Positions 44,005 to 53,908 of a stretch of 64,000 nucleotides of DNA are shown here, one piece after another. The stretch comes from Anaerococcus senegalensis JC48 (GTDB taxonomy: Bacteria; Bacillota; Clostridia; Tissierellales; Peptoniphilaceae). The notes under the pieces were generated by a model, which worked only from the letters and a program-made list of their open reading frames with translations, ran no database searches and was not told the origin of the DNA. Each line of letters opens with the position of its first letter. Position 1 is the stretch's first letter. The translations under genes and the position numbers were made by a program. The stretch is taken from NCBI RefSeq assembly GCF_000321005.1, contig NZ_HE578909.1:21404-85403 (forward strand). The letters run 5' to 3'.

Positions 44005-45678
44005 ATTTCAATATACACTCCCGCAAAGAGAGTGACATAATTTTTGATGGGCTTATTTCTCCTCTAAATACCATTTCAATCCACACTCCCGCGAAGGGAG
44101 TGACCAAAAAGACGTGCTTATATGCAAACAATTAGTAAAATTTCAATCCACACTCCCACGAAGGGAGTGACCGAAAGTAATTGCTATTGACAGTAAAACT
44201 TTTAAGATTTCAATCCACACTCCCGCGAAGGGAGTGACTTGATAAGTATAAAAACAATCGTTGGCGATTTTAAAATTTCAATCCACACTCCCGCGAAGGG
44301 AGTGACCTTCGTCCATTATCTCGTAAGCTTCCTCAATCCATAGAATTTCAATCCACACTCCCGCGAAGGGAGTGACATAATTAAATTGATTAATAACATG
44401 ATATGTATTATTTCAATCCACACTCCCGCGAAGGGAGTGACATATGGAGGTCTTTAGCGAGCTTACTGGCACAATCATTTCAATCCACACTCCCGCGAAG
44501 GGAGTGACAACTTTTATTTTAAATTTCCCAGAAGATGTTTGGGGAATTTCAATCCACACTCCCGCGAAGGGAGTGACTAATAGGAAATTTAACACACGAT
44601 CTAAAAATAACAATTTCAATCCACACTCCCGCGAAGGGAGTGACGAAATAGGATGTATAATGGTAGTGTGAAAGTAAGCGAATTTCAATCCACACTCCCG
44701 CGAAGGGAGTGACTTAAAAAATACCAAGCAAACACCAATATTTTACAAGATTTCAATCCACACTCCCGCGAAGGGAGTGACCAAAGGATTGTATATGCCG
44801 GTAATAAATCGCTGGCTGAAATTTCAATCCACACTCCCGCGAAGGGAGTGACCTTTAGAACAAAAAACAGACCAAGACTGGACAAGATTGATTTCAATCC
44901 ACACTCCCGCGAAGGGAGTGACTGGTTTTATATCAACAGCTAAAAATAGGTCAGTTTTAAATTTCAATCCACACTCCCGCGAAGGGAGTGACTCAAAAAT
45001 TTTTAATTATCAAAACGTACAGGAAAACATATTTCAATCCACACTCCCGCGAAGGGAGTGACGTCATAATAATTGTAGGAGTGTCGATGGAAGTTATCAT
45101 TTCAATCCACACTCCCGCGAAGGGAGTGACAATTATTTAATTAGGAGGAAATTATGGCAGTATTAATTTCAATCCACACTCCCGCGAAGGGAGTGACTTA
45201 AATCTTCAAGTATAGGATCTAATTCATTTCCTAATTAATTTCAATCCACACTCCCGCGAAGGGAGTGACCGTCAAGCAAGTATTTTAGGACTTAATATAA
45301 ATCATTTCAATCCACACTCCCGCGAAGGGAGTGACTCAAACTATTATTAATGGATTTAATTTAGATACTATTTCAATCCACACTCCCGCGAAGGGAGTGA
45401 CTGCAACACGCCCATTTTTTATGCAAAAAAGACGCTATTTCAATCCACACTCCCGCGAAGGGAGTGACGCTTGTCTTGTTTTACTTACTACAGCAGACCA
45501 CATAATTTCAATCCACACTCCCGCGAAGGGAGTGACTTGATCGATATAAAGTGCAGGCAAAGAATATTGATTTTATTTCAATCCACACTCCCGCGAAGGG
45601 AGTGACCTTGTAGTAGACTTCCAATGCCTATCAACCTTTAGCCTATATTTCAATCCACACTCCCGCGAAGGGAGTGAC
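44005..45678 (-). CRISPR. Type I-C CRISPR array, 25 repeats and 24 spacers
   Basis: A 32-base repeat recurs from 44005 to 45678. On the plus strand it begins ATTTCAATCCACACTCCC and ends GAAGGGAGTGAC. Spacers are 33-40 bases. Transcription is leftward: read on the minus strand each repeat ends in TGGATTGAAAT, the type I-C handle, after the CACTCCC / GGGAGTG stem. The leftmost repeat (44005-44036) is degenerate and the repeat at 44140 has one change, so the left end is the old trailer end and the leader is at 45679, beside cas2. Several spacers contain AGGAGG...ATG, as expected from phage gene starts. Confidence 0.98.
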
Positions 45679-45800: not shown

Positions 45801-46094
45801 TCAAATAATTAATAAATCTTTTTCAGGGTTGTATGTTTCATCTTTACCTAATGATTCTACCCTTCTCTCCCAATTTTTCCCTAAATTATATATTCTTATG
45901 CTATCCTCTTCTAAATCTATAACTTTTTTTAATTGAGATTTTATTTTAACTAAATCCGAAGGATATATATTCAATTCAAAAACCGAATTTTGTACTCTTT
46001 GTCCATAATTCGTGCATATTTTTGCTACTTGCCTCAATCTTTTATTTCCTGTTTTACTTGATGTCTTTACATCATAGGTGATTAATACTTGCAT
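45801..46094 (-). CDS. cas2: CRISPR-associated Cas2
   Basis: A 97-aa ferredoxin-fold protein that joins Cas1 in the spacer-integration complex. VLITYDVKT with the conserved Asp at residue 8 and GQRVQNSVFELNIYPSD are diagnostic. It is the last gene of the cas operon, 3 bases after cas1, next to the leader. Confidence 0.96.
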   Translation of the reverse strand: MQVLITYDVKTSSKTGNKRLRQVAKICTNYGQRVQNSVFELNIYPSDLVKIKSQLKKVIDLEEDSIRIYNLGKNWERRVESLGKDETYNPEKDLLII

Positions 46095-46097
46095 TTA

Positions 46098-47126
46098 TCA
46101 CTTCCTTAGATATGGTGGATAGGATTCTATATCTTCTCTTAAATAGCTATTTAAAAGCTGTGCTTGGATATGTGGTAAAAGTCCTATTGGTATTTTTTCT
46201 TCAATAAAGGGATGATATATTTCTTCGTGGCACTTATCGTTCCAGTAATTTAAAACTATATTTCTACCTTTATCATTTAATAGGGTGGCATTATTTTCTT
46301 TTACTTCAAACTTGTTTTTATCTAGTCTATTTAAATTTATAAGACTGAGGACAAATTTATCTACTATTGGAGCTCTCATTTCCTCAATAATGTCTAATGC
46401 CATACTAACTCTTCCCGGTCTATCGGTATGAAAAAATCCTGCATATGAATCTATCCCCACCCCTTCTAATGCTTGAGCTATATTATTTGCTAAAATGCTA
46501 TACATAAACGACAATAAGGCATTAACCCTGTCAAGTGGAGGTCTTTTGTTTCTTCCATTAAAATAAAAATCTTCTCTTTGTTTTACAATAAGTTCATCGA
46601 ATACAGAAAAATATTCCGATGCGATTTTCCCCTCTATTCCTCTAAGTTCATCTTTAGATTTTGATCTTGGAATTTCTAGCATTAAGTTTTTTATTCTATA
46701 TATTGCTTTTTCCATTTTCTCTAAGTTTATTTTATCTTTATGATCTAGTTTTCCTCTGATTAATAATTTTCTAGAATTATATGCCTTTGCATAAATTATA
46801 TTTTTTGAAAAATCCAAAGATTTATCACTTTCACTGATTTTGTATTGTTTTTTTCTAGTATAGATATTTCCATAACTTTTGCCAACAACTCTTCCGCAAA
46901 AATTTCCATGCGGATCATAAAAACTTATACTTACATTTGATTTCATGCAAAGCTTCATTAGAGAAGGACTAACACCCATATAATTAAAACAAATAATTTG
47001 ACTTAAGATATGGATAGGATATCTTTTTATACATCTTCCATCTATAAATATAAGTATATTTTCTCCTTCTCTTTTTAAATAAGCATCTGGATTTGTTATA
47101 TACAAAGTATTTAATAGTTTTTTCAT
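46098..47126 (-). CDS. cas1: CRISPR-associated Cas1 (type I-C)
   Basis: Integrase of 342 aa that inserts new spacers. GKIASEYFSVFD carries the catalytic Glu, FHTDRPGRVSMALDIIEEMR carries the His and the last acidic residues. Type I-C length is normal. It overlaps the cas4 stop as ATGA, so it is translationally coupled. Confidence 0.97.
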   Translation of the reverse strand: MKKLLNTLYITNPDAYLKREGENILIFIDGRCIKRYPIHILSQIICFNYMGVSPSLMKLCMKSNVSISFYDPHGNFCGRVVGKSYGNIYTRKKQYKISESDKSLDFSKNIIYAKAYNSRKLLIRGKLDHKDKINLEKMEKAIYRIKNLMLEIPRSKSKDELRGIEGKIASEYFSVFDELIVKQREDFYFNGRNKRPPLDRVNALLSFMYSILANNIAQALEGVGIDSYAGFFHTDRPGRVSMALDIIEEMRAPIVDKFVLSLINLNRLDKNKFEVKENNATLLNDKGRNIVLNYWNDKCHEEIYHPFIEEKIPIGLLPHIQAQLLNSYLREDIESYPPYLRK

Positions 47127-47776
47127 AAATCTTCTCCATACAAATAATTGTGAATGCTTTTAGGTTTTTTTGTAAGCCTTGGATTACATACTTCATATAG
47201 TGAGCATAATTTACATTTTCTATAAAATTCAGCTTTAGGAATGATTTTTTTATTGTAGTATTGGTGCATAAGTTTTGCAGTTTCTATGGTCAGCTTTCTT
47301 AATTTATCTTCAAAAATTATCTTTTCTCTAGTATCGGTTTTTCCATAATAAATGTATCCATATTCTAGATTTACGCCAAATTCTTCTTCTAAACAAATAG
47401 CCTCTGCCATAAGTTGACAATCGTCATAGGAGTATTTTTTCTTTTTTCCTCTTTTATACTCAATTATAGTTGCTTTCCACTTGCCATTTTTCCCTTTTAT
47501 ACTTATACCATCTTCTGATTTTTCAAATTCTATAACATCTAAAATACCACTTAAACCTAAAGTTTTTGAACTTATTGGCATAGCTCTTGATATTATTTTA
47601 TTTTTTCTTTTTTCTTTTATGAATGGTTTGTCAGCCTTTGAATGAAGAATTTCCCCTTCACTTGTGTATATATTTTCTTCCCATAAATTTTCAATATGAA
47701 TCAAAGCCCATTGTCTTTTACAAAATAAGAAGTGTTGGATGCCACTTAACATTAAATAATCATCTATACCATACAT
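47123..47776 (-). CDS. cas4: CRISPR-associated Cas4
   Basis: RecB-like exonuclease of 217 aa that trims prespacers and helps choose the PAM. The first cluster cysteine is in FLFCKRQWALIHIE and the last three are in CKLCSLYEVCNP, giving the 4Fe-4S site. The nuclease core is in GILDVIEFE and ATIIEYKRGKKK. It lies 0 bases after cas7. Confidence 0.95.
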   Translation of the reverse strand: MYGIDDYLMLSGIQHFLFCKRQWALIHIENLWEENIYTSEGEILHSKADKPFIKEKRKNKIISRAMPISSKTLGLSGILDVIEFEKSEDGISIKGKNGKWKATIIEYKRGKKKKYSYDDCQLMAEAICLEEEFGVNLEYGYIYYGKTDTREKIIFEDKLRKLTIETAKLMHQYYNKKIIPKAEFYRKCKLCSLYEVCNPRLTKKPKSIHNYLYGEDL

Positions 47777-48640
47777 TTATAATCCTGAAAAATGTTCTAC
47801 TTCTATACCTAATTCTTCATATTCTTTAAGTTTTTCATCATCAAGTCTAATATTATATTCCTTATAACTTCTTTTCAATTTTATTTCATCGCTTATATCG
47901 TAAATCAATAAATCTTTTAATTTACCACTTGATACATTTCCTATTTTAGAATTATGTTTTATCCAGTAAATATCTTTAACTTCCATTGATCCATCTGGTC
48001 TTGCTGATGAAATATCGTTTATAAATAAGGTTCTTATAGCTTCTTTCAAAACTTCTAAGTCTTTTTCATCAAATCCAGTTTTTTCAGCAAAATATGCATT
48101 TACACTTCCATTGACCACATATATTCCATAGTCTACATAACTTTTTGATCCTATAGTATCGGAGCTTCTTTTTCCACTTTTTTCTTCTTTTCCATTTACA
48201 CTTTTAGTTATTTGCATAGTTGTTATATCAACTGTATCTATAGACTTTGCGATTGAAATTGATACTGGACCCCTAATTCCCATAGCTCTATTTTCCATAT
48301 AGGTTATAACTTGTCCAAATGATCTTACATCAAGCCAATATTGACATGCTTTTTCTTCTATTTCTCTATTTGTAGATTTTTTATCTTTTTTATCAAATTT
48401 AGATAAAAACCTAGATTCTAATGAATTGAAACCATCATCACTTCTATAATCAGATTTCACAAATATTTCATGACCCATATCTTGCATTCTATTTCTGATT
48501 TTTCTTTTTATACATACATCGCTTATTTCTCCAAAACCATTTGTATCGATTCTAGGCATATTTCCAGCCAAAGGATCTCCATTAGGATTTGCACCTTCCA
48601 CTTTTATTGTAAATATGAAATCTATTTTGTTATTAATCAT
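47777..48640 (-). CDS. cas7: Cas7 (Csd2), type I-C backbone subunit
   Basis: Backbone subunit of the I-C effector, 287 aa, that polymerises along the crRNA and makes the protein thumb insert that displaces every sixth base. The N-terminal FIFTIKVEGANPNGDPLAGNMP and SFGQVITYMENRAMGIRGPV are Csd2 hallmarks. It overlaps the cas8c stop by 8 bases. Confidence 0.95.
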   Translation of the reverse strand: MINNKIDFIFTIKVEGANPNGDPLAGNMPRIDTNGFGEISDVCIKRKIRNRMQDMGHEIFVKSDYRSDDGFNSLESRFLSKFDKKDKKSTNREIEEKACQYWLDVRSFGQVITYMENRAMGIRGPVSISIAKSIDTVDITTMQITKSVNGKEEKSGKRSSDTIGSKSYVDYGIYVVNGSVNAYFAEKTGFDEKDLEVLKEAIRTLFINDISSARPDGSMEVKDIYWIKHNSKIGNVSSGKLKDLLIYDISDEIKLKRSYKEYNIRLDDEKLKEYEELGIEVEHFSGL

Positions 48641-50522
48641 CTATTTGCTCCTTATTATCTTTTTTTGTAAATATATCTTGAATTTGTCCTTCATATCCAA
48701 ATATAAATCCTGAACTTAATGCTTTTCTATTTTCTTCTTTTCTATAATCATAATTATCAGCGATAAGATTTGTTACTTCGTTAATTTGATTTTTTATTTT
48801 AAAGTATATTCTTTTTTTATTTTCATTTGCAGCTAATTTTCTTTCATATGGCTTTATAGCATCTCTTAATCTTAAATTAATTGTAACTGGATTATTTATA
48901 AAGCTTGTCCAATATTTTTCTGCATTTGTTATTCTAGTAATCTGATTATCTTTATCTTTAGTCTCAAAACATAATTTTTCAACTCTTTCGTATAAAGCTA
49001 ACAATCTACCATAAAGGTAAGACCTATCCAAATTTTCTTTATCTAACATATTATCTTTAATCCCCCATTTATATCTTAAAATTGACAAAGAAGTATTTTT
49101 TACTGTATTCCAAGTATCTTTATACTTAATTCTTGATTTTATATTTTTTTCTAAAGATTTTACAATATTATCACCTATATCTTTACCTTCAATGATACAA
49201 GATATGATATTTTGCATTTGACTTCTCAAAATTTTTTTATTATCAAGCGATATCTTTCCACTTCTTTCAACTCCGTATGATACAAGTGTAATAGTATAAG
49301 GACTTGGAGTATATATTATTTCATCATTTATTTTTTTATTAAATCCATACCAAAAATATTTATTTTGCCATTTTTGAAGATTTTCTTTTAAAATTGAAAC
49401 ATCTAACTCTTTAAAATATTTTGCTGCTGTTCTTCCATTGCTAATTTTATCAAAAATTCCAACATAATACTTTGAATCATCCGAAAATAAAATCTTTCCT
49501 TTTAAAAATGATTCTCCAACTTCTTTATTTTTCTCTCCACCTATTGTGTTTGAAATATTATTTCTAATCTTATAAATTCTCGAATTCAAATTTATACAAG
49601 TCTCATTTTTTATATCATCTGAAAACCAATTTACTAAATATGTATTATCTCCTAGCCACACGCTAGTATTTTCTGATGATAAAAGATACTTTGCCATAAG
49701 ATGAATTTCTTGACTAGTATTTGCACCTATTTTAATAGTTTCATCTGGACTTTTAAATCTACCATAAAAATTTTCATTATTTGCCGTGATTTGTGATATT
49801 AACCTAGCTGTAGCCATTAAAGGTCTATGCTTTGTACACAAATAATCTTCTTTCCCACTTATATTACAAATTATTTTTTCTCTTTGAGAATCTTTTTTAT
49901 TTAAATGATTAATGTATTGTAAATATATTTCGTGTAATTTATGATTTTTATTTAAAGACATGTCTTTAAGTCCATCATAATCTTCTATAGTAAAAGTGAA
50001 AAAAATTTTAGAAAAATCTATATCCTTTTTATTGTTATTTTTACTATTCGGATCATCTATACTTATTGTTAAATTTCCTTTAATTTCATAATCTACATAT
50101 AAATTATCTATAATTTCTAAAAATGATTTTGAATTAGATAAGAATTTATAAACTATGTTTAAAAAATCATCACCACTATAATCTAGCCAATCTTTCAACT
50201 GATTCATATATGCAACATTTTTCTTTGAACCTATATCAAATAAATATGATCCATTGTCTACTAAAGGATGTGGACTAGCTCCACTTGACCTAGCAACAGA
50301 ATCCTCAGTTACTGGAAATATTATATTATCATCCTTGTTCAAAAAATATGCATCAACAAGGTTAGAATCTTTATTAATTTTCAAAGAAACTATGTTTTTA
50401 CCATTAGACTTTTTATTATCGTGGTATAAAGGAAGAATTACGTCATTAGAATCATACTTATCAATCATATTATTATTTTTTGCATATTCATATGAATTAT
50501 AAAGTGCTTGAAGTAGGCTCAT
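48633..50522 (-). CDS. cas8c: Cas8c (Csd1), type I-C large subunit
   Basis: Large effector subunit of 629 aa that recognises the PAM and bridges to Cas3. MSLLQALYNSYEYAKNNNMI and YLLSSENTSVWLGDNTYLVN are typical of Csd1. An internal start in type I-C cas8c often gives the small subunit Cas11c; none was pinned down here. It overlaps cas5 by 4 bases (ATGA). Confidence 0.93.
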   Translation of the reverse strand: MSLLQALYNSYEYAKNNNMIDKYDSNDVILPLYHDNKKSNGKNIVSLKINKDSNLVDAYFLNKDDNIIFPVTEDSVARSSGASPHPLVDNGSYLFDIGSKKNVAYMNQLKDWLDYSGDDFLNIVYKFLSNSKSFLEIIDNLYVDYEIKGNLTISIDDPNSKNNNKKDIDFSKIFFTFTIEDYDGLKDMSLNKNHKLHEIYLQYINHLNKKDSQREKIICNISGKEDYLCTKHRPLMATARLISQITANNENFYGRFKSPDETIKIGANTSQEIHLMAKYLLSSENTSVWLGDNTYLVNWFSDDIKNETCINLNSRIYKIRNNISNTIGGEKNKEVGESFLKGKILFSDDSKYYVGIFDKISNGRTAAKYFKELDVSILKENLQKWQNKYFWYGFNKKINDEIIYTPSPYTITLVSYGVERSGKISLDNKKILRSQMQNIISCIIEGKDIGDNIVKSLEKNIKSRIKYKDTWNTVKNTSLSILRYKWGIKDNMLDKENLDRSYLYGRLLALYERVEKLCFETKDKDNQITRITNAEKYWTSFINNPVTINLRLRDAIKPYERKLAANENKKRIYFKIKNQINEVTNLIADNYDYRKEENRKALSSGFIFGYEGQIQDIFTKKDNKEQIDD

Positions 50523-51235
50523 ATTTTTCTCCCATATTCACTTAATTCCTCATCTACACTTTTTATTTTGTTTGAGATTTTAAAGTTGTACCCATTCAAC
50601 TCATTAATAATTTTACATTCTTCCGCTTTTATAAAACTAATTCTCCCTTCTTTCATCTCTATATGAGTAAATGTAGATTTTAGTTTCTCTTTATTTTCAT
50701 TGGGATATATAAAACCATTAAACATAAGACCGAAAGATAAGTTAGTTTCATCATAGTAACCGATATCGTTTTCATATTCATTTTTATTTAATTTTTCTAT
50801 ATATCCCATACATTCACTTACTCCCAAAAATATAGGTCTTCTTCCACCTCTTTTTAAGGATCTTTCAGTTATTTCTTCATGCTTTCTCATATTTCTATCA
50901 TTTTTTAAATCTTCCCTATTATAATTCCATTCAAAATGAAATTTTACATAATAACAAACATCTGTTAAATAGGTATAATTACTTAGATCTGAAGAATTTC
51001 CGTTTATTAATAGCCTTGTTCCAACTGAGTAAGTTTCGATTTTTTTCATAATCCTAATCTCATCAATTTCATTTTTTATTGTTGGTTTAAAATAATTTGC
51101 ATCTATTATTCCTCTTAAAGCTTCTCTAGTAGGAACTTGATATGTAAGCTTCTCACCTCCTCCTTTTGATTCTGGACTCGTCCACAAGGCTCTGGGGCCA
51201 TAAACTTTGGCATAAAAATATTTTGATTTTTCCAT
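50519..51235 (-). CDS. cas5c: Cas5 (Cas5c/Cas5d), crRNA-processing subunit
   Basis: Type I-C Cas5 of 238 aa that replaces Cas6: it cuts the repeat RNA at the 3' base of the hairpin, leaving an 11-base handle, and then stays in the effector. YFYAKVYGPRALWTSPES, YQVPTREALRGIIDANY and GGRRPIFLGVSECMGY are conserved. The start at 51235 has GGAGGAGAA upstream; the ATG at 51256 lies before that site. It is the first gene of the operon cas5-8c-7-4-1-2, whose promoter lies in the cas3-cas5 gap. Confidence 0.94.
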   Translation of the reverse strand: MEKSKYFYAKVYGPRALWTSPESKGGGEKLTYQVPTREALRGIIDANYFKPTIKNEIDEIRIMKKIETYSVGTRLLINGNSSDLSNYTYLTDVCYYVKFHFEWNYNREDLKNDRNMRKHEEITERSLKRGGRRPIFLGVSECMGYIEKLNKNEYENDIGYYDETNLSFGLMFNGFIYPNENKEKLKSTFTHIEMKEGRISFIKAEECKIINELNGYNFKISNKIKSVDEELSEYGRKI

Positions 51236-51251
51236 TTCTCCTCCTTTCATC

Positions 51252-51300
51252 TTCATGTTATTATTAGTGTATTATATTTTGAAAATAAAATCAAATTCAA
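51252..51300 (-). promoter_or_regulatory. cas5 operon promoter overlapping a PAM plus pseudo-protospacer
   Basis: On the minus strand TTGAAT (51295-51300) and TATAAT (51271-51276) are 18 bases apart, with the likely start near 51264. On the plus strand TTC at 51252-51254 is followed by ATGTTATTATTAGTGTA (51255-51271). This matches the crRNA-like spacer at 51350 in 15 of 17 positions, mismatching only at positions 6 and 12. An effector bound here would cover the -10 and the start site. Confidence 0.75.
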
Positions 51301-51307
51301 TATTTTC

Positions 51308-51316
51308 TGGTATAAT
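51308..51316 (+). promoter_or_regulatory. Extended -10 promoter of the crRNA-like RNA
   Basis: TGG-TATAAT on the plus strand, divergent from the cas5 promoter and just outside the stretch an effector would cover. The RNA would start near 51323, immediately before the repeat-like hairpin. No good -35 is seen, as expected for an extended -10. Confidence 0.6.
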
Positions 51317-51390
51317 TTATATATCAGAGTAAGCTCTGTGGATTGAAAAATGTTTTTATTTGTGTAAGGAGCAAAATATGTGCTCCTTTT
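51317..51390 (+). ncRNA. Solitary crRNA-like RNA (CreR-type candidate regulator of cas5-8c-7-4-1-2)
   Basis: A hairpin CAGAG-TAAG-CTCTG (51325-51338) is followed at once by TGGATTGAAAA (51339-51349), the array handle with one change at the last base. The hairpin-plus-handle order equals that of the array repeat in its transcribed sense, so Cas5 should cut it. The pseudo-spacer starts at 51350 (ATGTTTTTATTTGTGTAAGG) and runs into a terminator hairpin (51366-51388), with no second repeat. Its first 17 bases pair with the cas5 promoter next to TTC, except at positions 6 and 12. Known CreR RNAs use such limited pairing to make the effector repress its own genes without cutting. That this one works the same way is inferred. 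Confidence 0.75.
51366..51390. terminator. Terminator shared by the crRNA-like RNA and cas3
   Basis: AAGGAGCA / TGCTCCTT arms around a 7-base loop, with TTTT on the plus side ending at the cas3 stop codon. It is a good terminator for the plus-strand RNA and a weaker one for cas3. Confidence 0.75.
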
Positions 51391-53908
51391 AAATTATAAA
51401 TATATCTGAATTTTCAAATTCTACTCCTGTTTTTTTATTGTAAAATTCTTCTTCTAAAATATAAACTCTTCCATCCATTATTTTTTCACATGATTTTAGA
51501 TTTGAGTTATTAATATTAACACTATATGGATTTAATTTTCTAATTATTATTTTTATATCCTTTAAAATATTTATATTATAACTTTGATAAAATTCACTTT
51601 CTAAATTCCTTAATTTACTTATATATTCTTTTGTATCTTCACATTCTACAATTGCTATGTTTTGATTTTCATCTATCAAATTAAAATTATCATAGACTTC
51701 TTTAAAACTCTGATACATATCAATATTTATATTATTAAAATATTCTAGATACTTTTCTTCAATTTTATTTATATTATTTATCATTTCTATATTTGTCGAC
51801 AATAATTCAATTAAATTACTATTTTTTATTTTAAAACACAACCTTTGGTAAGGTAAATTTTCATAAAGTTTATTAAAATATAATTCTACTATATCATTTA
51901 TTTCTTGATTATTTGCCAGTCGATCTAATGCGTATTTTCCAGCAAATTTTCTTTCTTTTAAGCTAATGATATGGTCTAAATTTTCAATTTGTCTTGATAA
52001 ATTTATAAGATATACTATCCCAATTTTTCTTTTACCTTCTCTGTTGCACCTACCCATTGATTGAATTATTGAGTCAATACCTGTAAAAGATCTTATGACT
52101 ATCTCAAAATCTACATCAACTCCTGCCTCTATTAGCTGGGTACTTATTACTACGATATTTTCATCATTTTTTAATTTATTCTTTATTTTCTCTATAATTC
52201 TAAGCCTATCTACTGAATGCAAATTTGTTGTCAAATAATACAATTTATCTTCATCTATAATATTTTTTAATGATTCATAAGTGTTTTTTACAGCTTTTTT
52301 TGTGTTTAGTATAGTCAAAACTGATTTGTTGGAGTTTTCTATAATTAGTTTTTTTAAATCTTCAAGATTAGATTCCTTTCCATTACTATAAATTTTAACT
52401 TTAGTTCTCTTAAATACCTCTTCTTTATCCTTACTTAAGTTTACTAAATCTACATTTTTTTCTTCAAAATCTCCATAGTTCAATTTGTAAACCAGGTTAT
52501 TATAATCAAAAGTAGGTTGGGTTGCTGTCGATAAAATTATATTCGCTTTCATCACTACCTTCATAAAATTAAGGATTAAATTTGTTGGATATAAGACATC
52601 TACTGGAAGCGACTGTAATTCATCTAGTATAATTACAGAGTTTATCATCGATTTAAACCTTCTTATATTTGAAGACTTACCTTTAAAAAGGGTATTGTAA
52701 AATTGAACCATAGTCGTCAAAACAATTGGTTTTGTCCAATCATCTAGTAAATATTGTCTTTTCATTTGATAAAAACTATCACCATTTTCATCATTGTTTT
52801 CTGAAGAATCGCCTTCATTTTCATCATTAATTACATTAGAATGATGCTCTAAAATATAAGCATCATTTCCTAAAATATCTTTCATGACCTTAGCATTTTG
52901 CTCAAGAACTGAAAGATAAGAAGTTATATAAAAAAATCTTTTTTTATCCTTAAATTTTAATTGATTTACTCCATACCTCAAGGACAAGAGTGTTTTTCCA
53001 GACCCCGTTGGCAAATCCATCTTATATATGCCGCTACCGTCTTCAATAGATCTTTTTAAAATTTGATTTGATATATCATTTCTAGCTAAATTTATAGGTG
53101 ATTTTTTCTTAGAAAAAGATTTATATTTTTTGTCTATATTCTCAACAAAAGAATGTATCACTTTTTTATTCTCATCATATTTCTCATCTTCTATTATTTT
53201 TTCGTAAGAATTGATAGTATCTTTCACGTCAGCAGATTTTAAAATAGACAAAATTAGTCTAGTAAGCATAGAATTATAAAATTGGATTGCCCTATATGAA
53301 TTTTCTTGGTCTTTAATGCTAGCTGAAAATTCGTTTAATTTTTTAATTATGCAATCATATTCAAAAAAAGCTTTTTTAAATATTTCACAAATATCTATTT
53401 TTTCTTCTAATAAATATTTATTTACCTTTTCATATAAATCTTGGTATAAACCATAACTTTCTTCTAAGTTTACCATTCTATCAATGGATGTGAATACGTA
53501 ATTATTTTCTTTATTTTTTCTAACCATATTATATTGGCCGTGGTGAGATAAAATTGAATAAATAATAATATTACAAAAATCATTAAATTGATAATTCATA
53601 TCCTCATCTTTTAATAGACTAGAAAATTCTATCTCTTTTTTTAGTTTTTTTACTAACATATGTATAAAAATTCCACCTAAGCTTGAATGATCCACATGCT
53701 TATTTGAATTATTTTTTATCTTTTCTTGAAATTCCTTCCTTATTTTTCCTATATCATGAAATAATCCAACTATAAAAGATATATTTTCTATTCCTATTTC
53801 TTTGCCCATATTCTTAGAATCAAAAGCTGTGTTAATCAAATGGTCAAAAAGTTCCTGTTTCCTATTACTATTATTTTGATCTATGTGAGCGTATGTATTT
53901 TCAAACAT
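51389..53908 (-). CDS. cas3: CRISPR-associated helicase-nuclease Cas3
   Basis: Effector nuclease-helicase of 839 aa recruited by DNA-bound Cascade. The N-terminal HD nuclease has LFHDIGKIRKEF (about residues 49-60) and SHHGQYN. The superfamily 2 helicase has Walker A LPTGSGKT (about 297-304), DEAD-type box DELQ in VIILDELQSLP, STATQP, and QSMGRCNREGKR as motif VI. AAAGGATAATAA precedes the ATG. It is transcribed separately from cas5, with the crRNA-like RNA gene in between, convergent to it. Confidence 0.96.
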   Translation of the reverse strand: MFENTYAHIDQNNSNRKQELFDHLINTAFDSKNMGKEIGIENISFIVGLFHDIGKIRKEFQEKIKNNSNKHVDHSSLGGIFIHMLVKKLKKEIEFSSLLKDEDMNYQFNDFCNIIIYSILSHHGQYNMVRKNKENNYVFTSIDRMVNLEESYGLYQDLYEKVNKYLLEEKIDICEIFKKAFFEYDCIIKKLNEFSASIKDQENSYRAIQFYNSMLTRLILSILKSADVKDTINSYEKIIEDEKYDENKKVIHSFVENIDKKYKSFSKKKSPINLARNDISNQILKRSIEDGSGIYKMDLPTGSGKTLLSLRYGVNQLKFKDKKRFFYITSYLSVLEQNAKVMKDILGNDAYILEHHSNVINDENEGDSSENNDENGDSFYQMKRQYLLDDWTKPIVLTTMVQFYNTLFKGKSSNIRRFKSMINSVIILDELQSLPVDVLYPTNLILNFMKVVMKANIILSTATQPTFDYNNLVYKLNYGDFEEKNVDLVNLSKDKEEVFKRTKVKIYSNGKESNLEDLKKLIIENSNKSVLTILNTKKAVKNTYESLKNIIDEDKLYYLTTNLHSVDRLRIIEKIKNKLKNDENIVVISTQLIEAGVDVDFEIVIRSFTGIDSIIQSMGRCNREGKRKIGIVYLINLSRQIENLDHIISLKERKFAGKYALDRLANNQEINDIVELYFNKLYENLPYQRLCFKIKNSNLIELLSTNIEMINNINKIEEKYLEYFNNINIDMYQSFKEVYDNFNLIDENQNIAIVECEDTKEYISKLRNLESEFYQSYNINILKDIKIIIRKLNPYSVNINNSNLKSCEKIMDGRVYILEEEFYNKKTGVEFENSDIFII

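Follow-up and report, generated by a model that had tools for sequence, protein, structure and literature searches.

Liu et al. 2023 (Cell Host Microbe) reportedly described CreR, a cas-regulating RNA. Isolated repeats whose spacers pair in part with cas promoters are said to have been described by Shmakov et al. 2023 (NAR), who reportedly also proposed that mini-arrays in phages reduce the expression of the effector; the use of such RNAs by phages has thus reportedly been proposed in print. Autorepression of Cas9 by the long-form tracrRNA, in which the effector represses its own promoter via a short natural guide, was reportedly the work of Workman et al. 2021. In a passage of PMC13131331, CreR is named for types I-B, I-E and V-A, and in PMC12737573 it is treated for type I generally, with the term 'I-C' absent from the main text.

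In the locus analysed here, a small crRNA-like gene lies in front of a type I-C cas operon, and we consider it highly probable that its RNA would direct the type I-C Cascade of the cell to the cas5 promoter and repress the cas5-8c-7-4-1-2 operon. With this gene, type I-C would gain a cas-regulating RNA for which many naturally evolved guide-target pairs are available.

The small gene between cas3 and cas5

On its minus strand, the window, a stretch of 64,000 nucleotides from Anaerococcus senegalensis JC48, has a type I-C locus that is complete and in which profile matches give the order cas3, cas5c-cas8c-cas7-cas4-cas1-cas2 and array. The features are listed below.

51389..53908, minus strand: cas3 (TIGR01587 and TIGR01596), upstream of the putative CreR gene and outside the operon aimed at
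51366..51388, plus strand: terminator-like hairpin, immediately 3' of the guide at the place of a second repeat (from the fold)
51350..51366, plus strand: 17-nt guide ATGTTTTTATTTGTGTA, matching 51255-51271 at 15 of 17 positions
51339..51349, plus strand: 11-nt crRNA handle TGGATTGAAAA, array version TGGATTGAAAT (from the sequence)
51325..51338, plus strand: degenerate repeat stem-loop CAGAG-TAAG-CTCTG (from the fold, compared with the array repeat)
51308..51316, plus strand: predicted extended -10 of the putative CreR gene, TGGTATAAT (read from the sequence)
51271..51300, minus strand: predicted cas5 operon promoter, -35 TTGAAT at 51300-51295 and -10 TATAAT at 51276-51271 (consensus match only)
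51255..51271, plus strand: target (protospacer) in the cas5 promoter and leader, ATGTTATTATTAGTGTA from 51255 (sequence and match counts)
51252..51254, plus strand: TTC PAM (from the sequence)
50519..51238, minus strand: cas5c (TIGR01876; scan from 51256, start by eye at 51238)
48633..50522, minus strand: cas8c (TIGR01863)
47777..48640, minus strand: cas7c (TIGR02589)
47123..47776, minus strand: cas4 (TIGR00372)
46098..47126, minus strand: cas1c (TIGR03640)
45801..46094, minus strand: cas2 (TIGR01573)
44005..45678, minus strand: CRISPR array of 25 repeats and 24 spacers

The operon aimed at comprises the Cascade and adaptation genes without cas3, and its first start codon, that of cas5, appears best placed at 51238, after GGAGG, rather than at 51256.

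On the plus strand of the gap between cas3 and cas5, a lone degenerate repeat is followed by a handle, a guide and a hairpin, forming a small gene at about 51322-51393. The repeat lies outside the array and consists of one stem-loop and the 11-nt handle, as is the case for a CreR, and the hairpin directly 3' of the guide occupies the place of the longer spacer and next repeat in a normal crRNA. The array repeat, which as RNA reads GTCACTCCCTTCGCGGGAGTGTGGATTGAAAT, has TGGATTGAAAT as its 3' end, indicating that the 11-nt handle and the guide register are correct, with the handle at 51339-51349 and spacer position 1 at 51350 as the sequence-only reading had placed them. The RNA of the small gene is predicted to fold into two hairpins with handle and guide unpaired between them (-15.5 kcal/mol, z -2.15; at least as stable in 11 of 200 shuffles). 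It would be transcribed from the extended -10, which did not appear in the promoter scan, there being no fitting -35; a TATAAT-like box precedes the repeat in relatives. The hairpin after the guide did not appear in the terminator scan, its T-run being too short, and promoter and terminator were assigned by eye and from the fold. No Rfam match was found in 44-54 kb of the window. The gene sits between cas3 and cas5 and not in a virus or mobile element, which is the location of a Racr; it very probably encodes a cas-regulating RNA of the CreR kind in a type I-C system, for which repression is the predicted activity.

When the guide is laid against the plus strand from 51255, positions 1-5, 7-11 and 13-17 are identical and mismatches occur at 6, 12 and then 18-22, while TTC at 51252-51254 immediately precedes the protospacer, exactly as had been claimed from the sequence. 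The matching stops at 17, a length probably too short for cleavage, as in a CreR. Of the further claim that the target covers the -10 and the start site of the cas5 operon, the part on the predicted start site stood, and the match also overlaps the leader; the -10 (51276-51271) is touched at its last base only, although Cascade bound there would probably extend over its other bases.

An agreement by chance had been called very unlikely, and the counts agree. All 127,966 17-mers of both strands of the window were compared with the 21 TTC-flanked sites on both strands of 51050-51500, with the 15 non-flip positions scored. Twenty-two 17-mers matched some site at all 15 positions, 21 of them being the sites themselves and the remaining one 51350; a chance match was rejected, since 1 of 127,945 non-self 17-mers fits. 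None of the 24 array spacers scored above 10 of 15 against TTC sites near cas5. The 1.8-Mb genome has a single instance of TTC directly before ATGTTNTTATT, and this sole site is the cas5 promoter and not a toxin promoter as in CreTA.

In the proposed mechanism, Cas5c would cut the degenerate repeat and leave the 11-nt handle, and Cascade would load the small RNA and bind 51252-51271. Pairing would comprise three 5-nt segments, probably too short to recruit Cas3 for cleavage, and bound Cascade would only obstruct RNA polymerase. This would amount to negative feedback, in which a rise in free Cascade lowers cas transcription, and abundant array crRNAs or an anti-CRISPR would relieve the repression.

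Covariation and mismatch footprint in relatives

In Peptoniphilaceae, a family that includes Anaerococcus, Peptoniphilus and Murdochiella, a Cas5c match was found in 27 of 130 genomes. A CreR-type gene was observed upstream of cas5 in 16 of these 27, and the guides of all 16 match the cas5 promoter of their own genome, next to TTC in 13, TTT in 2 and TAC in 1. The guides vary widely (ATTCTTTTATT, ACTTACTATTA, AATGTACTAAT, GTTATTTTAGA), each matching its own promoter. A comparison of orthologous loci had been suggested by the sequence-only reading, and guide and promoter covary in every one of the 16 genomes with an upstream pseudo-repeat; relatives that keep the RNA and lose the match were also sought, with no instance among the 16. 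In the other 11 genomes no gene was seen upstream of cas5, the region upstream of cas3 having been inspected in few; among these 11, G072 has a weaker gene (12/17) farther upstream (L048), and G068 stops at a contig edge. Further pattern matches across the family were rejected as cas-locus CreRs, those read, all but G041 C5, resembling coding sequence by eye.

The wider survey covered 80 named loci from at least 575 relatives, obtained by an alignment-based search (a single-protein query gave none), and a guide was counted when it matched at 13 or more of 17 positions beside TTC, TTT, TAC or CTC. A matching guide, in front of either cas5 or a cas3-sized ORF, was found in 24 of the 80 named type I-C loci, including those of Streptococcus, Peptoniphilus, Murdochiella, Paenibacillus, Cohnella, Domibacillus, Lachnospiraceae, Treponema, Spirochaetaceae and one deltaproteobacterial bin. 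In 17 of the 24, the cas5 match begins 22-361 nt downstream of the target; in the other 7, the target is found 12-326 nt upstream of an ORF of 740-817 aa, cas3-sized by length. Since the gene was not seen upstream of cas5 in 11 of the 27 family genomes and was found in only 24 of the 80 named loci, it is dispensable for type I-C. At 14 or more of 17 positions, matches were obtained for 45 of 122 non-array handles and for 1 of 1,220 random-offset controls, with overlapping loci counted repeatedly. In the clostridial loci L064, L095, L100, L103, L105, L108 and L053, the guide aims upstream of the cas3-sized ORF, as if tracking the lead gene of the operon.

The guide occurs on either strand and has the sense of the operon in 11 of the 24 named loci, indicating that antisense pairing with mRNA is unlikely as a general mechanism. 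In the window itself, the guide could base-pair with the coding strand of cas5 near the ribosome site, as would be expected of an ordinary antisense sRNA that needs no Cascade and stops translation by annealing to the 5' leader of the cas5 mRNA; yet most of the pairing would fall on or before the predicted start site, and such an sRNA, which we regard as very improbable, gives no reason for the TTC PAM, for the crRNA handle or for the freedom of positions 6 and 12.

Type I effectors flip out every sixth guide base. The mismatch footprint was compiled from 32 distinct guide-target pairs (TTC only, at least 13 of 17, unweighted), a cut-off that caps the number of mismatches and has no position bias; the pair of L078 is probably the wrong site (an alternative matches at 14 of 15 non-flip positions) and was retained in the count. 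Mismatches were observed at 2/160 for positions 1-5, 24/32 for position 6, 8/160 for positions 7-11, 23/32 for position 12, 7/128 for positions 13-16, 14/32 for position 17 and 24/32 for position 18, and beyond it they ranged from 59 to 78%, against the 63% expected from composition. Positions 6 and 12 together gave 47/64 and the remaining positions of 1-17 gave 31/480 (Fisher p 1e-32 assuming independence, which is untrue for related species). The six-base periodicity claimed for the single pair in the window is therefore found across the 32 pairs, with 6 and 12 free and background mismatch from 18. From evolution alone, the profile reads positions 1-5, 7-11 and 13-16 or 17 as paired and positions 6, 12 and 18 as unpaired. 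In these pairs, the evolutionary record shows the flipping of each sixth base and the use of about three segments.

Cognate guides and targets agree at a mean of 14.0 of 15 positions and non-cognate ones at 6.0, and for 32 of 32 guides the own target is the best. A functionless remnant, left by a decaying array or by a spacer acquired from the cell's own DNA, would account for a degenerate repeat and for a self-match beside a PAM, which is the expected trace of mis-acquisition. Guide and promoter covary, however, while positions 1-5, 7-11 and 13-16 remain paired and the layout remains constant, and repeat and handle have been retained across several phyla; very little credence is given to such a relic, which was rejected.

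Related genes in prophages

In the genome of the window (G000), a whole-genome search found a second gene of this plan, aimed at the same site, at C1:718560-718594, with an extended -10 (TGCTATAAT), the stem CAAGG...CCTTG, the handle GCGGATTGAAAT, the guide ATGTTTTTATTAGTGTT and a terminator-like hairpin. It is located in a prophage of about 40.5 kb (C1:717302-757870) whose two ends, at 717302 and 757853, are marked by an 18-bp direct repeat (L141, L142, L149, L150) and which has terminase, tape-measure and endolysin genes, the RNA gene lying about 1.3 kb from the left end. The same prophage gene is present in a 40,025-bp contig classed as viral by IMG/VR (1,557 bases read). The location in a virus is that of a Racr, and a guide matching the promoter has been kept.

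In the window array, 8 of the 24 spacers match this prophage with 1-3 mismatches (shuffled spacers, 0 of 72), next to TTC in six cases, TTT in one and TAA in one. Because of these matches, a use of the gene by the prophage to silence the operon is likely, and the prophage RNA would likely hold the cas operon down via the host site. Six of the eight cas2-proximal spacers (spacers 1-8 of the window array) match the resident prophage with mismatches, a pattern that would fit primed adaptation by related phages.

Three more prophages of the family carry similar genes (in G036, G006 and G004). In G036, which is of the same genus and has no Cas5c match, the gene is 94% identical and adjoins the terminase and capsid region; it also occurs in an IMG/VR contig. 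The prophage of G006 (Peptoniphilus rachelemmaiella, L035) has a mini-array with short guides and four degenerate repeats, near lysis and baseplate genes (L242 at about 9339-9630 on C11; L257 and L258 on C20). G004, also without a Cas5c match, has a two-repeat version by an endolysin gene (L251 9318-9460 on C19), which is found in an IMG/VR contig as well (L255). Near all four prophage RNA genes there is a homologous ORF of 143-148 aa (L002 1605-2036; L214, L242, L251), the other three being 39%, 45% and 82% identical to that of G000; its C-terminus hints at an Arc/CopG-like regulator in two of the three scanned, and it could be an anti-CRISPR-associated regulator.

G006 has 98 spacers, of which 22 fit the prophage region of this genome with at most 7 mismatches, five of them perfectly and with TTC (four distinct sites). 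The ORFs of cas3, cas5, cas8c and cas7 are full-length, and cas1 is split into two ORFs. Perfect self-spacers together with full-length interference genes indicate that some inhibitor is likely. Self-targeting could also be tolerated because an unrecognised protein anti-CRISPR or escape mutations in the prophage, and not the RNA, keep the lysogens alive, an explanation to which we give slightly less than even weight. Five of the six TTC-flanked matches to the G000 prophage carry mismatches within positions 1-11, indicating that mutational escape is partly involved, and the small ORFs beside the RNA genes mostly have no family assignment. In contrast, spacer 21 is mismatched with the G000 prophage at 21, 26 and 29 only, G006 retains its perfect spacers, and Pfam and NCBIfam name no anti-CRISPR among the 10 small prophage ORFs scanned.

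The fit of the prophage guides to host promoters bears on a further explanation, in which the prophage copy is a Racr, that is, a repeat mimic tying up Cas proteins, and its guide is incidental. The guides of the G006 prophage fit their own host promoter partly (best 11/15, with a mismatch at position 2), and anti-CRISPR activity has been published for solitary type I-C repeats carried by phages (RacrIC1; excerpts of PMC10651486). An incidental guide is nevertheless hard to reconcile with the G000 prophage, whose guide matches the cas5 promoter at 10/10 of the seed and 14/15 overall and fits better at position 12 than the host CreR, or with the first guide of the G004 prophage, which matches the G006 promoter at 10/10 of the seed and 13/15 overall, and we consider the Racr explanation rather unlikely. 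The case for silencing through the host site is strong for G000 and suggestive for G004 against a G006-like host, as judged from these matches.

Taken as a general statement, it is on balance probable that temperate phages of Peptoniphilaceae carry RNA anti-CRISPRs whose CreR-site guides would make the host Cascade shut its own cas operon; the versions with two or four guides perhaps serve several hosts. Silencing by the phage, if true, would explain the survival of lysogens despite arrays that target their own prophage, and it turns the puzzle of lysogens keeping anti-prophage spacers into a testable model via the host feedback site.

Phage mimics were also sought elsewhere. With Streptococcus guides, IMG/VR gave 2 matches without a stem before the handle, a second search gave none, and a third gave 17 matches, of which 2 passed the stem screen and were rejected by eye as having no CreR layout; the five Streptococcus genomes tested each hold one copy of the pattern. 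The Peptoniphilus-type pattern gave 46 IMG/VR matches, of which 6 passed a loose stem screen and none had the CreR layout by eye. In two further IMG/VR searches, one of three matches has the layout (L143), and one of four (L255). In INPHARED, blastn with the prophage gene returned 11 records with short partial matches only. A search for the CAGC stem gave seven matches that were read by eye. On two IMG/VR contigs of 96 and 128 kb (L234 2885-2955 and L236 3500-3565), no more than about 20 nt lie between a hairpin CAGCC..GGCTGTGGATTGAAAC and a subsequent repeat AATTTCTACT..GTAGAT, which by eye we take to be type I-C-like and Cas12a-like, respectively; these are possibly tandem RNA anti-CRISPRs against two CRISPR types.

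Comparison with described systems

Among the titles and abstracts returned by a literature search, a CreR of type I-C was the subject of none; the search did not reach Liu 2023 and Shmakov 2023, and absence from print is not claimed. The CreR principle is already known, and the prophage carrying a second such gene was beyond the view of the sequence-only reading.

The long-form tracrRNA belongs to a type II system, acts with Cas9 and is tracrRNA-derived, whereas the window gene is of type I-C. CreTA, as excerpted in PMC8501985 and PMC9458426, shares with it a crRNA-like guide, degenerate repeats and repression via a short seed match, but the window guide aims at cas genes, and there is no toxin gene at its target. 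The prophage copy resembles Racr in being a phage-borne solitary type I-C repeat gene, and differs in that Racr, according to the excerpts of PMC10651486, is a repeat mimic producing aberrant Cas subcomplexes, while the prophage copy keeps a guide for the cas promoter. With CreR itself, as it appears in the excerpts of PMC13131331 and PMC12737573, the window gene has in common an ectopic crRNA-like RNA, partial complementarity to a cas promoter and autorepression by the effector, the last of which is predicted here. Most published mini-CRISPRs have a second repeat, which the window gene does not; compared with CreR, it is distinguished by its type I-C setting, by one degenerate repeat with a terminator-like hairpin, by a target promoter that lies behind cas3, and by the mismatch footprint at positions 6, 12 and 18.
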